A DNA stretch of 45,983 bases, taken from the NCBI RefSeq assembly GCF_004302915.1, contig NZ_QQBI01000024.1:1-45983 (forward strand). Reading direction: 5' to 3'. Shown here piece after piece: positions 37,116 through 41,898 of this stretch. The stretch is from Komagataeibacter xylinus (lineage in GTDB: Bacteria > Pseudomonadota > Alphaproteobacteria > Acetobacterales > Acetobacteraceae). The translations under genes were made by a program, and so were the position numbers. Numbering within the stretch: the stretch's first letter is position 1; the number at the start of each line of letters is the position of its first letter. The notes below the pieces were generated by a model, which worked only from the letters and a program-made list of their open reading frames with translations, made no database searches and was not told where the DNA came from.

Positions 37116-37330
37116 GCGTGGGGGCTCCGCAGGGTGTTGACCACGTCGATCAGGATCTGGCGCATGGCCGCCTCATCCACGCCCATCAGCACGGCATCCT
37201 CGAACGCATCCTGCAGGACACCCCGCACTTCCTGATGGTTTTCGCGCAGGACCAGCAGTTTGTCACGGCAGGAAACCGGCGTGCCATCACGCTGTGGCCA
37301 CATGGCGGGCAGGGCGTCTTGACCGCTCAT
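37112..37330 (-). CDS. Small unknown protein between mlaD and DUF2155
   Basis: A 72-residue protein I cannot place in a family. It is soluble-looking and probably helical in its second half (VLRENHQEVRGVLQDAFEDAVLMGVDEAAMRQILIDVVNTL), with one Cys and no signal peptide. It is real by context: its start overlaps the mlaD stop by ATGA, and its stop overlaps the DUF2155 start by ATGA, so all three are read by coupled ribosomes. A role in the envelope or respiratory functions of its neighbours is only an inference. Confidence 0.75.
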   Translation of the reverse strand: MSGQDALPAMWPQRDGTPVSCRDKLLVLRENHQEVRGVLQDAFEDAVLMGVDEAAMRQILIDVVNTLRSPHA

Positions 37331-37863
37331 GGCGCGTCTCCGCCCGGCGCGGGGGCAGCAGGCTGGTTCGCCTTGTCCTGCCGGGCCTTGGTCAGGGTAT
37401 CGGTTACCGAGAAGATGAACTTGCTGAGCAGCTGCTCAAGGCTGATCGCGCCCTGGGTCTCGCCAATCGTGCCGCCGGGGGCGAGCATCTTGTCATCGCC
37501 ACCGGGCGAGAGGGCAATGTATTTGCCACCCAGCAGGCTGTCGCTGGTAATGATGGCCGCCGTATCATCAGGCAGCCTGATGTCGGGGCGTACGGTAAAG
37601 GTGACCTGTGCGGCATACGTCCTGGGGTTGACGCGCTCATCGACCACCTGCCCCACCGTAATGCCCGCAAGCCTGACATCCGAGCCGATGGACAGGCCAT
37701 CGATATGGGCGAACCCGGCATTGAGCCGGTAGCCGGTTTCATGCGGGCGGCCCTTGTCGAGCACGGCATAGGCCAGCAGCCCCGCAAGCCCGGCCAGCAC
37801 GGCAAAACCGGCAAGAAGTTCCGCTGGCTGACGGCCCGCGCGCCCTGAAACAGCAGCAACCAT
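37327..37863 (-). CDS. mlaD: MlaD-type MCE protein
   Basis: A 178-residue protein with one N-terminal transmembrane helix (ELLAGFAVLAGLAGLLAYAVLD) and an MCE domain at residues about 40-125: YRLNAGFAHIDGLSIGSDVRLAGITVGQV ... AAIITSDSLLGGKYIALSPGG. MlaD hexamers carry phospholipid between the inner membrane MlaFEB transporter and the periplasmic carrier MlaC, keeping the outer membrane asymmetric. mlaE, mlaF and mlaC are not in this window, so the partner set lies elsewhere. It is coupled to the small gene downstream and follows NDUFA12 by 59 bp. Confidence 0.9.
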   Translation of the reverse strand: MVAAVSGRAGRQPAELLAGFAVLAGLAGLLAYAVLDKGRPHETGYRLNAGFAHIDGLSIGSDVRLAGITVGQVVDERVNPRTYAAQVTFTVRPDIRLPDDTAAIITSDSLLGGKYIALSPGGDDKMLAPGGTIGETQGAISLEQLLSKFIFSVTDTLTKARQDKANQPAAPAPGGDAP

Positions 37864-37922
37864 GGTGGCAAAGCTTCCCCAATATCCAATGGCGCGCACC
37901 CTAGCAGGTTACGCCACGGGTT

Positions 37923-38291
37923 TCATCCCTCGGGGTACCATGCCTCATAATCACTGGTGGTTGAAGCCCGCTGGCCGCCCCGGCAGTCGCTGCCCGGCGG
38001 GTGGTAGGCTCCCGCTGTTCCGGTCTGGTTGGGCTGCCAGGGCTGCTGCCACGGCTGGCGCGCGCTCTCGGGCAGGGGGGCGGCCTCCATGTGGTGCAGC
38101 CAGCCCCACCATTCGGGCGGCACGGCGGATGCGTCCTCGCCCCTGTGATAGATGACCCAGCGCTCGTGGCGCTTTTCCCCGCCGCCGGTGCGGTTGGGCG
38201 TGCGGGCCTCATAATAACAGCGCCCGTCGGCATCCTTGCCGACCAGTCGCCCCCTGAAGCGGGTGTAGATGCGGGTGCCTAGATTTGCCAT
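37923..38291 (-). CDS. NADH:ubiquinone oxidoreductase subunit NDUFA12 family
   Basis: A 122-residue member of the NDUFA12 (B17.2) family. RFRGRLVGKDADGRCYYEAR, RHERWVIYHRGEDASAVPPEWWGWLHHM and the ending YEAWYPEG match the known pattern. In Alphaproteobacteria and mitochondria it is an accessory subunit on the hydrophilic arm of complex I. It implies that this strain codes for complex I; the nuo genes themselves are not in the window. It probably heads the operon with mlaD, the small gene and DUF2155. Confidence 0.92.
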   Translation of the reverse strand: MANLGTRIYTRFRGRLVGKDADGRCYYEARTPNRTGGGEKRHERWVIYHRGEDASAVPPEWWGWLHHMEAAPLPESARQPWQQPWQPNQTGTAGAYHPPGSDCRGGQRASTTSDYEAWYPEG

Positions 38292-38559: not shown

Positions 38560-40155
38560 ATGACAGCACGAAGCCACTGGAACGGCGTGCGTATGCGTAC
38601 CGTTGAAGCCGCAGCGGACCCAGACGACGCGCCGCGTTCCGTAACCCTGCCCGCCGACTGGGATGACACGGCAGCCGAGGCCGTGGCCCGGCTGGCCCCC
38701 GGCCATGGCCCCGCCAACCTGCCCGAACTCGCGGCGCGATGGATCGATGACCTGTGCGCGGGCGAGGTGTCCGGCCCGGTCATTGGACCGGTCGCGCGCG
38801 CGCTGTCGTGCCTGCTGCTCATGCGCCAGGCCGCACCGAGCGAAAGCCTGTGGCATGGCCACCATGACCGCAGGCCCGCCTTCGTGGTCAACCTCGCCGC
38901 CTTTGTCGAGGCCGATAACAGCTTCATGGCGCGCGACTTCGTAGCGGCCCTGCGCCTGCTGGCCCGCGTGCTGCGCACCCTTGCGCACCAGAAGCTGCAC
39001 ATGCGCAATGGCGAGCTGCCCCTGCCCGAGCCTGCGGGCGGCGCGGTGGCCCACCTGCGTGCCGTCACCCTGCCTCCTGCTGGCGAAAGCCATGAGCGCG
39101 CCCCTGTTGCGGGTGCGCTGCTGCTGACCAACCTCGATGCCTGCCTGGCCGGGCTGGGGCTCGATTATGACAGCGAGGCCGGGCGCGACGCGGCATGCAG
39201 CATCGTGGCCCTTGCCACCCTCGTGGCCCATGCGGGCGAAGGGGCGGACGCCATGCCCCTGCCCCCCGTGCGCAGCATCCTGCCCGGCGTGAGCCAGATC
39301 GCACGCAGCGTATGGCAGGAAGCGGCTGTCGAGACCGACCAGCCCGCCGCCCGTGTCGAGACCGGCTTTTCCACCCCCGGCCCCATCGATGCGCTGCTGG
39401 GCGTGGAAGCATGCGGGCTGGCCCCCGTCTTTTCCCCGCTGCGGCCTGACGGGCGGCTGGCCATGAGCACGCTGGCCCGACTGGCCAGCCGGGGCCTGAC
39501 GCTGGAGGCAGCCTTCGCCGCCACCCTTGCGGGCGAGAGCGTGCTGCCCCTGCCCGCCGCCGCCTCGCACCAGGCCATGCACCGCGCGCTCAGCGGGTTT
39601 GTGGACCGCGTGCCCGCCCGCCCCGATGCCACGCGTGACACGCTGGCCACCCGCGCGGGGCTGGAGCGCGGCGTGCGCCGCCACCTGCCCGCACGCCATG
39701 GCGGCTTTACGCAGAAAACCCGCATCGGCGGCCACCGCCTGTTCCTGCGCACGGGGGAATATGCCGACGGGTCGCTGGGCGAAATCAGCCTGACGCCCAC
39801 GCGGGAGAGCCCGATGGTGCGCGGCCTGATGGACACGCTGGGCCAGGCCGTAAGCATCGGCCTGCAATATGGCGCGCCGCTGGAAAGCTATGTCGAGGCC
39901 TTTGCCTACACCCAGTTCGGCCCCGCGGGCACGGTGGAGGGCGACCCGGTTGCATCCTACGCCACATCCATGCTCGACTACGCCTTCCGCGCCCTGTCAG
40001 ATGCCTATCTGGGCCGCAGGCTACCCGATGCCCCGCATGAGGAGACGCTGGCCGAAAGCCCCGCCCCCATGCTGCCGCTCGACCTGCCCGGCTCCGGCAA
40101 TGACGATGGCGATGACACGCCCCCCCGGCGGCGCGGGCTGCGGCTGGTCGGATAA
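38560..40155 (+). CDS. NrdJ-derived protein (C-terminal half of class II ribonucleotide reductase, TSCPD type)
   Basis: A 531-residue protein. Residues 385-490 are very like the C-terminal segment of class II (B12-dependent) ribonucleotide reductase: QKTRIGGHRLFLRTGEYADG, LGEISL, AVSIGLQYGAPLESYVEAF, FGPAGTVEGD, ATSMLDYAFR, YLGR. Weaker similarity precedes it: NLAAFVEADNSF at 111-122, LLLTNLDACLAGLGLDYDSEAGR at 187-209, and TPGPIDALLGVEACGLAPVF at 272-291, which recalls the PTGTI and DTTGIEPDF region. The N-terminal barrel half and the N-x-C-x-E motif are missing, so it should not reduce ribonucleotides. It may be a pseudoenzyme or regulator. ridA follows 43 bp later. The start at 38560 is uncertain; Met12 is an alternative. 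Confidence 0.75.
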   Translation: MTARSHWNGVRMRTVEAAADPDDAPRSVTLPADWDDTAAEAVARLAPGHGPANLPELAARWIDDLCAGEVSGPVIGPVARALSCLLLMRQAAPSESLWHGHHDRRPAFVVNLAAFVEADNSFMARDFVAALRLLARVLRTLAHQKLHMRNGELPLPEPAGGAVAHLRAVTLPPAGESHERAPVAGALLLTNLDACLAGLGLDYDSEAGRDAACSIVALATLVAHAGEGADAMPLPPVRSILPGVSQIARSVWQEAAVETDQPAARVETGFSTPGPIDALLGVEACGLAPVFSPLRPDGRLAMSTLARLASRGLTLEAAFAATLAGESVLPLPAAASHQAMHRALSGFVDRVPARPDATRDTLATRAGLERGVRRHLPARHGGFTQKTRIGGHRLFLRTGEYADGSLGEISLTPTRESPMVRGLMDTLGQAVSIGLQYGAPLESYVEAFAYTQFGPAGTVEGDPVASYATSMLDYAFRALSDAYLGRRLPDAPHEETLAESPAPMLPLDLPGSGNDDGDDTPPRRRGLRLVG

Positions 40156-40198
40156 CCCGGCGCCGTACCCCGCCGCCTGAATGCAAGGATTGTTGCCC

Positions 40199-40666
40199 AT
40201 GCCCGATACAACCCCCGAACAGCGCCTCAAGCAGCTTGGCATCATGCTGCCCACCCCCGCCACACCCGTGGCCAATTACGTGGGCACCGTCATCAGCGGG
40301 TCATCGCTGGTGGTGTCAGGCCAGTTGCCGCTGGTTGATGGCAAGCTGCTGACCACCGGCAAGCTCGGCGGCACCGTGGCGGTGGAACTGGCGGTGGAAG
40401 CCGCGCGCTACAGCATGATCAACGTGATCGCGCAGGTTAAGGCGGCCCTTGGCGACCTTTCACGCGTGAAGCGCGTGGTGCGGCTGGGCGGGTTCATTGC
40501 CTGCACGCCCGACTTTACGCAGCATGCCGCCGTCATGAACGGGGCCTCCGACCTGGCGGTAGCCGTATTTGGCGATGCGGGCCGCCATGCGCGCTCGACC
40601 GTGGGCGTGCCCTCGCTGCCGCTCGACTCCGCTGTCGAGGTCGAAGGCCTGTTCGAAATCGGCTGA
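40199..40666 (+). CDS. RidA family protein (second paralogue)
   Basis: A 155-residue RidA/YjgF protein of the longer subgroup, with the N-terminal TPEQRLKQLGIMLPTPATPVANYV, SLVVSGQLPLVDG, LGGTVAVELAVEAARYSMINVIAQVKAALGDLSRVKRVVRLGGFIACTPDFTQHAAVMNGASDL and RHARSTVGVPSLPLDSAVEVEGLFEI. The Arg in HARSTVG is at the position used by RidA enzymes. It probably removes reactive enamines/imines. AAGGA 9 bases before ATG at 40199 fixes the start. It lies between the NrdJ-derived gene and the GNAT-like gene, apparently in one operon. Confidence 0.92.
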   Translation: MPDTTPEQRLKQLGIMLPTPATPVANYVGTVISGSSLVVSGQLPLVDGKLLTTGKLGGTVAVELAVEAARYSMINVIAQVKAALGDLSRVKRVVRLGGFIACTPDFTQHAAVMNGASDLAVAVFGDAGRHARSTVGVPSLPLDSAVEVEGLFEIG

Positions 40667-40699: not shown

Positions 40700-40747
40700 A
40701 TGACCGCACCGCCCCGCACAGCCTGCACCACGGCGCAGGCATCATGA
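40700..40747 (+). CDS. 15-codon leader ORF before the GNAT/FemAB-like gene
   Basis: A short frame encoding MTAPPRTACTTAQAS with its own ribosome-binding site (AAAGGGAGC, 7 bases upstream). Its TGA overlaps the start codon of the next gene as ATGA. A perfect 6-bp hairpin GCCTGC/GCAGGC with an 8-base loop lies inside its end (40721-40740), just before that start codon. Reading the leader would open the hairpin and allow reinitiation. It may instead be the remnant of a deleted gene. It is too short for proof from sequence alone. Confidence 0.45.
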   Translation: MTAPPRTACTTAQAS

Positions 40748-41898
40748 CCGGCACCACCATGACCCTGCACCGCCGGATTGCCGAGATCCCGGCGGCGCAG
40801 TGGGATGGCTGCGCGGGCGATGAAAACCCGTTTGTCAGCCACGCCTTCCTCTCGGCACTTGAAGACAGCGGCTCCACCGGCCCGCAGACCGGCTGGATGC
40901 CCCAGCACCTTGCCCTGCGCGACGGCGAAGGCAGCCTGCTTGCAGTCGCCCCGCTTTACGCCAAGGGCCATTCCTTTGGCGAATACGTGTTCGACCATGC
41001 CTGGGCCCGCGCCTTCGAGCAGGCGGGCGGGCAGTATTATCCCAAACTGCAGGTCGCCGTGCCGTTCTCGCCCGTGCCGGGGCCGCGCCTGCTCGTTCAC
41101 CCCACCGCCCCCGATGCCGACAGCCTGCGCCTGCTGGCGGGCCGCGCGCTGCGGCAGGCCTGTGGCGAGATGGGACTTTCCTCCGTGCATGTCACCTTCT
41201 GCACGACGCATGAATATGAACTGCTGGGCGAAGGCGGCTGGCTGCAGCGCCTTGGCGTGCAGTACCACTGGGATAACCAGGACTATGCCAGCTTTGACGA
41301 TTTTCTGGGCATGCTGGCCTCACGCAAGCGCAAGGCCATCCGGCGCGAGCGACGCGATGCCAATGCCTGCGGGCTGACATTCCACACCTATCGCGGCGCG
41401 GAGATTACCGAGGCGCTGTGGCATGATTTTTATCACTTCTACCTCTCTACCGTGGACCGCAAATGGGGCAGCGCCTATCTGCAGCCCTCCTTCTTCCCGC
41501 TCCTGTCCGAGCGGCTGGGCGACAGGGTGGTGCTGATGATCGCCAGGCAGGACGGCGTGCCGGTGGCCGGCGCGCTCAACCTGATGGGGCGCGATACGCT
41601 GTACGGCCGCAACTGGGGGCGGCGCGAGGGGGACTGGCCGTTCCTGCACTTCGAGCTGTGCTATTACCGCGCCATCGACTTCGCCATCGCCCATGGGCTG
41701 AAACGGGTGGAAGCGGGCGCGCAGGGCGAGCACAAGCTGCAACGTGGCTACCGCCCGTGCCTGACCCATTCCGCCCACTGGATCAGCCACCCCGGCCTGC
41801 GCGAGGCCGTGGCCGAATTCCTGCAACATGAACGCGCGGCCATACGGGCCGAACTGCCCGCCCTTGAGGCCATGACCCCTTACCGCGCAGAAGAATAA
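40744..41898 (+). CDS. GNAT/FemAB-like acyltransferase (PF04339 family)
   Basis: A 384-residue protein of the family often called 'peptidogalycan biosynthesis protein' or DUF482. Landmarks: WDGCAGDENPFVSHAFLSALEDSGS at residues 20-44, VAPLYAKGHSFGEYVFDHAWARAFEQAGGQYYPKLQVAVPFSPVPGPRLL near 60-110, HVTFC, QYHWDNQDYASFDDFLGMLASRKRKAIRRER near 180-210, GRNWGRREGDWPFLHFELCYYRAIDFAI and EAGAQGEHKLQRGYRP. The fold is a tandem GNAT like FemX; the acceptor is unknown. It follows ridA with a leader ORF between them, and a double-hairpin repeat begins 16 bp after its stop. Confidence 0.88.
   Translation: MTGTTMTLHRRIAEIPAAQWDGCAGDENPFVSHAFLSALEDSGSTGPQTGWMPQHLALRDGEGSLLAVAPLYAKGHSFGEYVFDHAWARAFEQAGGQYYPKLQVAVPFSPVPGPRLLVHPTAPDADSLRLLAGRALRQACGEMGLSSVHVTFCTTHEYELLGEGGWLQRLGVQYHWDNQDYASFDDFLGMLASRKRKAIRRERRDANACGLTFHTYRGAEITEALWHDFYHFYLSTVDRKWGSAYLQPSFFPLLSERLGDRVVLMIARQDGVPVAGALNLMGRDTLYGRNWGRREGDWPFLHFELCYYRAIDFAIAHGLKRVEAGAQGEHKLQRGYRPCLTHSAHWISHPGLREAVAEFLQHERAAIRAELPALEAMTPYRAEE

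Follow-up and report, generated by a model that had tools for sequence, protein, structure and literature searches.

According to the available text of one study, the cysteine-rich C-terminal domain of the class II ribonucleotide reductase NrdJ serves in oligomerisation and electron transfer (PMC5704485). A second report describes, in the text available, an IscU-like fold in class II C-termini, mostly lacking metal-binding cysteines, and proposes that the domain originated from an IscU-like protein; the same text reports no role for it (PMC9669993). In Pseudomonas aeruginosa, whose class II enzyme is split, the separate subunit NrdJb carries out thiol-disulfide exchange and binds to the rim of the active-site cleft of NrdJa, as far as the available text describes it (PMC4520616). 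No description of an NrdJ remnant such as the one presented here was found in openly licensed papers.

The window, i.e. the whole stretch of 45,983 nucleotides of Komagataeibacter xylinus DNA that was analysed, contains a gene whose product resembles the C-terminal part of NrdJ (Table 1). The original prediction took the protein for the C-terminal half of NrdJ and for a working pseudoenzyme, which might modulate NrdJ, bind nucleotides or B12, or carry out a reaction together with the RidA-family protein of the adjoining gene. The ancestry is confirmed below, and a different function is favoured over those proposed.

Table 1. Features of the remnant gene and its surroundings (positions in the window)
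Feature	Position	Strand	Basis
TSCPD-protein gene (internally deleted, catalytically dead NrdJ descendant)	38560..40155	+	open 531 codons; Pfam, NCBIfam, profile alignment
Leader, residues 3-101, probably from NrdJ residues 11-154	38566..38862	+	profile score against shuffles
Remnant of second barrel half without NxCxE and PTGT, residues 104-350	38869..39609	+	profile alignment, motif counts, fold matches
Poorly conserved insert, predicted disordered, residues 151-184	39010..39111	+	dN/dS 0.448; pLDDT about 31-40 (residues 151-180)
TSCPD domain, IscU/SufU-like predicted fold, residues 372-487	39673..40020	+	kept in all remnant lineages
New low-confidence tail that replaces the cysteine tail of NrdJ, residues 488-531	40021..40152	+	conserved terminal motif; pLDDT 30-43
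RidA/YjgF-family gene	40181..40666	+	PF14588, E 1.7e-30; starts 25 bases past the remnant stop codon
FemAB_like/GNAT gene, second downstream neighbour	40744..41898	+	PF04339, E 4e-154
NDUFA12 gene, divergent, upstream	37923..38291	-	PF05071, E 2.8e-19
MlaD gene, next upstream after NDUFA12	37327..37899	-	TIGR04430, over cut-off

Ancestry and lost chemistry of the 531-residue protein

Family libraries detect the NrdJ likeness of the protein at its C-terminus only. Residues 385-483 match TSCPD (Pfam PF12637) with an E-value of 1.4e-8 and 35.3 bits, against a curated cut-off of 22.8, and the NCBIfam NrdJ model PRK07562 is matched only at its positions 968-1083 (E 1.7e-41), far under the cut-off for a full-length enzyme. 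Alignment of a profile of 46 family members with one of 19 NrdJ-type sequences pairs residues 104-491 with NrdJ 481-1082 (E 1.2e-65). In one of the 19 sequences (L036 and L086, genome G098) NxCxE, PTGT and the cysteine tail are all absent. This sequence is counted in the 19-row alignments, the motif counts, the TSCPD tree and the locus counts, and the reruns with 18 rows omit it. The TSCPD part, residues of about 372-490, corresponds to NrdJ 963-1077 (E 1.2e-54 with 19 rows, 1.6e-53 with 18). When this part is excised, residues 104-350 alone align with NrdJ 486-723 at E 5e-17 and 6e-15, respectively, and residues 185-350 match NrdJ at E 3e-13 and 1.7e-12. These matches rule out a homology confined to the last 100 residues and bear out the prediction that NrdJ ancestry extends across the second barrel half.

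The N-terminal half, which had been thought to be gone, probably persists in part. Leader residues of about 3-101 are collinear with NrdJ residues of about 11-154 (4-101 with 12-154 in the closer delimitation). With 19 rows the leader scores 29.9 (E 0.0025) and the top of 30 column shuffles is 22.4; with 18 rows it scores 24.5 (E 0.017), a value reached by none of 100 column shuffles, the top of which is 22.0. Omission of the G098 sequence thus weakens the leader match and leaves the barrel match strong. The descent of the leader from the NrdJ N-terminus is graded as probable, not certain, because the E-value is only 0.017. Nothing in the alignment corresponds to NrdJ residues of about 155-480 and 724-850. 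Segment by segment, therefore, the remnant resembles NrdJ without these two stretches and with its end replaced. The collinear leader means that an internal deletion describes the protein better than a simple C-terminal half: its second barrel half and TSCPD domain are there as predicted, but the leader was probably kept, the middle deleted and the extreme C-terminus replaced.

The AlphaFold model of the protein has a pLDDT of 74 and a pTM of 0.65. A complete ten-stranded barrel is not present, and the model contains no full barrel. Nevertheless, all 43 matches of the whole-protein model against the Protein Data Bank at E <= 0.001 (Foldseek) are titled ribonucleotide reductase, the best of them (E 3.5e-6) being 7b9q, the B12-dependent enzyme of R. 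sphaeroides. Profile alignment and structure prediction, both proposed as checks at the outset, agree on NrdJ ancestry, and the 531-residue protein is confirmed as a class II ribonucleotide reductase with an internal deletion. Its closest named relatives are from Komagataeibacter species (97% over residues 1-345). The tail ends in an LPL..LRLV-type motif in 58 of 74 sequences and in 39 of the 46 family relatives.

The radical-site motif NxCxE is absent from all 46 family members, as had been predicted, and is present in 18 of the 19 NrdJ-type sequences. The phosphate loop PTG[TS] gives the same counts (0/46 against 18/19). The TSCPD domain is followed by no cysteine or a single one in each of the 46 relatives, compared to a six-cysteine tail in 18 of the 19 NrdJ-type sequences. 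With neither radical site nor phosphate loop in any of the 46, the remnant is unlikely to bind nucleotides or B12. The genome to which the window belongs comprises 3.63 Mb in 101 contigs. Its single large-subunit gene above the reductase-barrel threshold encodes a 642-residue class I NrdA, and a small-subunit gene is found elsewhere. This NrdA ends with its own C-terminal CLAC sequence, and no ATP-cone is detected by Pfam in the large or small subunits. A search of this genome for a full nrdJ returned no second, NrdJ-type large subunit above the threshold, so that the suggested modulation of NrdJ does not fit.

The dN/dS ratio, calculated from 13 of the 19 loci of the genus (78 pairs, of which some regions keep 72-78 after the dS filter), is 0.145 for the whole gene. 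By region it amounts to 0.201 (residues 1-103), 0.215 (104-150), 0.448 (151-184), 0.069 (185-350), 0.054 (TSCPD, 372-487) and 0.162 (tail); the neighbouring genes have values of 0.063 (RidA), 0.095 (NDUFA12) and 0.103 (MlaD). Judged by these ratios, the gene is under purifying selection. Selection on the half barrel in the Acetobacteraceae is almost as strong as that on TSCPD (0.069 against 0.054), so the function in this family may involve more than the TSCPD domain. Of the 80 named loci returned for the remnant, all from genera that we take to be Acetobacteraceae, 74 have an intact frame, three are cut by a contig end and three are frame-split. The ratio of 0.145 and the 74 intact frames speak against decay, in line with the earlier reading of the gene as intact. 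With NrdJ ancestry, loss of NxCxE and an intact, selected gene, the remnant is a non-catalytic descendant of NrdJ rather than a decaying one.

Occurrence of the remnant and the reductase class

In the Acetobacteraceae, the family of remnant carriers labelled f1, a remnant match is found in 141 of 150 genomes and in 123 of the 126 good ones; G119, G193 and G123 are the good genomes without a match. Weak or partial matches include those in G126 (1.4e-7), G190 (4.6e-5), G154 (1e-22), G103 (1.7e-28) and G182 (2.2e-26). The remnant of G183 (L190) is split over three frames, and the 2.0-Mb genome G192 has two copies (L192, L193), both of which are spread over two or three frames; these two genomes may be in the course of losing it. 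Being absent from 3/126 good genomes, apparently broken in G183 and G192 and frame-split in three of the 80 named loci, the remnant is not indispensable.

NrdB was found in 136 of the 150 Acetobacteraceae genomes. G111 and G187, which belong to one genus (L048, L049, L098-L100), have no NrdB match; they carry a full-length NrdJ off the native locus and keep the remnant. In G111 (genus g94) the remnant is at the native locus, and the full NrdJ stands elsewhere without the neighbours of that locus. The two genomes represent a reversal of reductase class. G133 has another barrel gene and also keeps the remnant, with no NrdB found.

A survey of 142 genomes spread over the Alphaproteobacteria gave a TSCPD match in 95, most of the frames being about 1,100-1,360 or 750-850 residues long. 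The other 47 genomes have no TSCPD match, and loss of NrdJ therefore does not always leave a remnant. The short TSCPD frames of the survey led to two families, f98 and f9, and to a single genome, G264 (f100).

Family f98 contains SAR11. The 16S gene of G306 (g241) matches four SAR11 probes with 0 mismatches, and on this ground the family is called SAR11; this genome also has a gene of the bacteriorhodopsin family (E 1.8e-53). In G262 (g199) three of the four probes match with 1-2 mismatches and the fourth does not match within 4, and a pattern search found no rhodopsin. A TSCPD protein of 273-294 residues occurs in 27 of the 28 SAR11 genomes. In the sister family f139, 29 of 30 genomes match, with lengths of 1,180-1,218 residues among the matches listed. 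All 28 SAR11 genomes have a class I NrdA of ~650 residues, and all seven f139 genomes tested have a B12-type enzyme of ~1,200 residues; this clean split between sister families bears on B12 dependence in the sea. The SAR11 remnants have 0 cysteines in TSCPD (27/27) and none in the tail. They (L202-L229, not L228) have in common an N-terminal stretch of ~54 residues that starts M[AS]K[YF].[VA]E[TS][YF]YTC; among all loci compared it occurs only in f98 (27 loci and G262), and it has no Pfam match.

In f9, a family with small genomes, 27 of 32 genomes have a remnant, mostly of 270-301 residues and in two cases cut shorter, and 28 of 32 have a class I NrdA. Two CxxC motifs are kept in 24 of the 27 remnants, and the tail has at most four cysteines compared to six in NrdJ. 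G264 (L185), a single genome with 10% contamination, has a 667-residue remnant beside NDUFA12 and RidA genes and a 652-residue NrdA; PF08471, the class II N-terminal domain, matches this remnant below threshold (E 0.002, 18.7 bits, cut-off 27). The G098 gene (f40; L036, L086) is full-length, stands beside NDUFA12 and is 38% identical to NrdJ over 1-1119. Its NPCSE is replaced, its PTGT and cysteine tail are missing and its TSCPD is nearly unchanged. This gene may represent an early step in the same conversion of NrdJ to a remnant. Of all parts of NrdJ, only TSCPD persists in every remnant lineage.

In a tree of TSCPD (78 rows, 117 columns), the bootstrap of which is unsettled, the f1 remnants lie on one side of a branch (97/80), and those of SAR11 form the sister group of the full f139 NrdJ (96/92). 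From these positions the SAR11 and Acetobacteraceae remnants appear to have arisen separately, and a separate origin of the SAR11 remnants is supported by the tree. The f9 remnants fall near two other NrdJ, a weak placement (96/74); their separate origin is likely but less firm.

A remnant that regulates the class I reductase which replaced NrdJ, for instance by binding NrdA and altering its oligomeric state, would agree with the NrdA of 620-660 residues in the remnant lineages (28/28 SAR11, 28/32 f9) and with the three NrdA tested, which carry only the barrel and all-alpha Pfam domains and no ATP-cone. The position of NrdJb at the cleft rim of NrdJa, in the available text of PMC4520616, offers a precedent for such binding. 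However, the remnant is present in G111, G187 and G133, where no NrdB was found, whereas G119, G193 and G123 have both NrdA and NrdB and no remnant. The remnant is therefore not tied to one reductase class. A fixed association with the class I enzyme is weakened by the first three genomes, and a regulatory role in that enzyme is unlikely.

The nrdJ locus and the adjoining RidA gene

Of 17 full-length nrdJ-type loci outside f1, 11 have a divergent NDUFA12 gene at a distance of no more than 1.5 kb, one of the 11 being the motif-less G098 gene, and one more has it at 1.9 kb. NDUFA12 or MlaD is upstream of the f1 remnant in 46 of 49 loci, and the other three are within 260 bases of a contig end. 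NDUFA12 also adjoins the remnant in 27/27 SAR11 and 27/27 f9 loci. Because NDUFA12 marks full-length nrdJ and remnant loci alike, the remnant stands at the ancestral nrdJ locus.

On the downstream side, a FemAB_like/GNAT neighbour is conserved in 43 of the 49 f1 loci. In G262 the remnant gene stands alone and is convergent with aspS, a gene named by reading. G056 (L072) has an intermediate, 801-residue form of the remnant with more of the barrel, followed by two tandem RidA-family genes.

The RidA-family gene next to the remnant had suggested a joint reaction. It is directly downstream in 46 of 49 f1 loci, in 25 of 27 f9 loci and at the f100 locus, yet within 1.5 kb of none of the 17 full-length nrdJ-type loci, two of which have a RidA gene 2.6 and 3.9 kb downstream. 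A protein that acts together with RidA would account for this pairing, but so might plain inheritance of the gene order. Furthermore, none of the 27 SAR11 remnants has RidA beside it in the roughly 1.3 kb of downstream DNA or, in G262, in 16 kb. RidA therefore cannot be the general explanation; a joint action of the two proteins is unlikely overall, but may take place in the Acetobacteraceae.

A candidate role for the TSCPD domain

The model of the TSCPD domain has a pLDDT of 83.6. Its first eight Foldseek matches are IscU/SufU proteins, several of them from complexes with SufS or NFS1, at E 0.029-0.20 and TM 0.34-0.55, with no match below 0.001. A sequence search of the Protein Data Bank found no solved TSCPD structure, and the R. 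sphaeroides crystal construct aligns only up to NrdJ residue 920, ahead of TSCPD. No cysteine is invariant in the TSCPD of the remnants, which hence lacks a conserved metal ligand.

The fold matches, and the IscU-like origin proposed in the available text of PMC9669993, are consistent with a remnant that binds a cysteine desulfurase as IscU/SufU do and, without carrying clusters, acts as a brake or adaptor. Carriage of a cluster or of sulfur in the usual way does not apply, because the SAR11 TSCPD has 0 cysteines in 27/27 remnants. However, likeness of fold alone shows no shared partner, and G262 has SufU-like and cysteine-desulfurase-like genes of its own, as found by regular expression and reading only. 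A place for the remnant in sulfur or Fe-S metabolism is thus distinctly unlikely.

The two CxxC motifs in 24/27 f9 remnants could be read as those of an electron donor like NrdJb, and the broken genes of G183 and G192 as those of a slowly decaying, functionless leftover. The six-cysteine tail is gone, however, in 46/46 family members and 27/27 SAR11 remnants and is reduced to at most four cysteines in f9, and on account of this loss the donor role is rejected. Against decay stand the selection and intact frames described above and retention in SAR11 genomes of 1.0-1.5 Mb. Taken together, a donor or a mere leftover is extremely improbable.

The preferred reading is that TSCPD has a reductase-independent role as a protein-protein scaffold or oligomerisation module, to which we assign a probability of about one half. 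The gene would be the former nrdJ of the lineage, left in place once class I NrdAB took over dNTP synthesis. An internal deletion would have taken out the first half of the barrel, including the radical cysteine, and the redox cysteines of the C-terminus would also have been lost, leaving the leader, the half barrel and TSCPD. In NrdJ itself TSCPD may already have had a second role that needs no ribonucleotide reduction, and hence been retained. A size series agrees with such a conversion: full-length without the motif in G098, 801 residues in G056, about 500 in the Acetobacteraceae and about 280 in f9 and SAR11. As redox function is gone in every remnant lineage, a structural or binding function would be what is left. 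The idea of a scaffold or oligomerisation module comes from the IscU/SufU-like fold without metal cysteines and from the published oligomerisation role of the NrdJ C-terminus; scaffolding as the specific job of TSCPD is a guess from a predicted fold and from analogy. We infer that the function of TSCPD is independent of reductase class, and retention of the domain at the same locus in acetic acid bacteria and SAR11 suggests that it has another job. It is proposed more tentatively that such a function is general, and that where Alphaproteobacteria dispense with NrdJ the enzyme can be lost while selection maintains the module.

Most pseudoenzymes are paralogues of an enzyme that stays active. 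In the present case it is the orthologue, still at its native locus, that lost its catalytic chemistry after an enzyme of a non-homologous class took over the reaction. This occurred on more than one occasion, and each time the same domain survived. Lineages that have the IscU-like domain without the enzyme make the role of the domain testable by gene deletion in acetic acid bacteria, which are tractable. Few known cells are as streamlined or as abundant as those of SAR11, and if the proposed reading is true, they depend on a function that lay hidden within a reductase and has not been described. Annotation pipelines may miscall the remnants as ribonucleotide reductase.

By score the remnant is a member of TSCPD PF12637, an entry that gives a domain name without an assigned function. 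In predicted fold it may resemble the IscU/SufU scaffolds, but it lacks their conserved cysteine ligands and the Foldseek scores are weak. Like NrdJb (available text of PMC4520616), it is a separate protein of the IscU-like/TSCPD region, and the remnants of ~280 residues in f9 and SAR11 resemble NrdJb in size. NrdJb donates electrons to NrdJa via its C-terminal cysteines, according to the same text, whereas the remnants have no redox end. The 531-residue protein has neither the C-terminal exchange cysteines nor a matching NrdJa in its genome, and no NrdJ-type barrel that an NrdJb-like partner could serve was found in the SAR11 genomes. From NrdJ (PRK07562) the remnant differs in the absence of NxCxE, of the PTGT loop, of the first half of the barrel and of the cysteine tail. 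It shares with NrdJ its ancestry over the second half of the barrel, TSCPD and probably the leader, and it occupies the same genomic locus.
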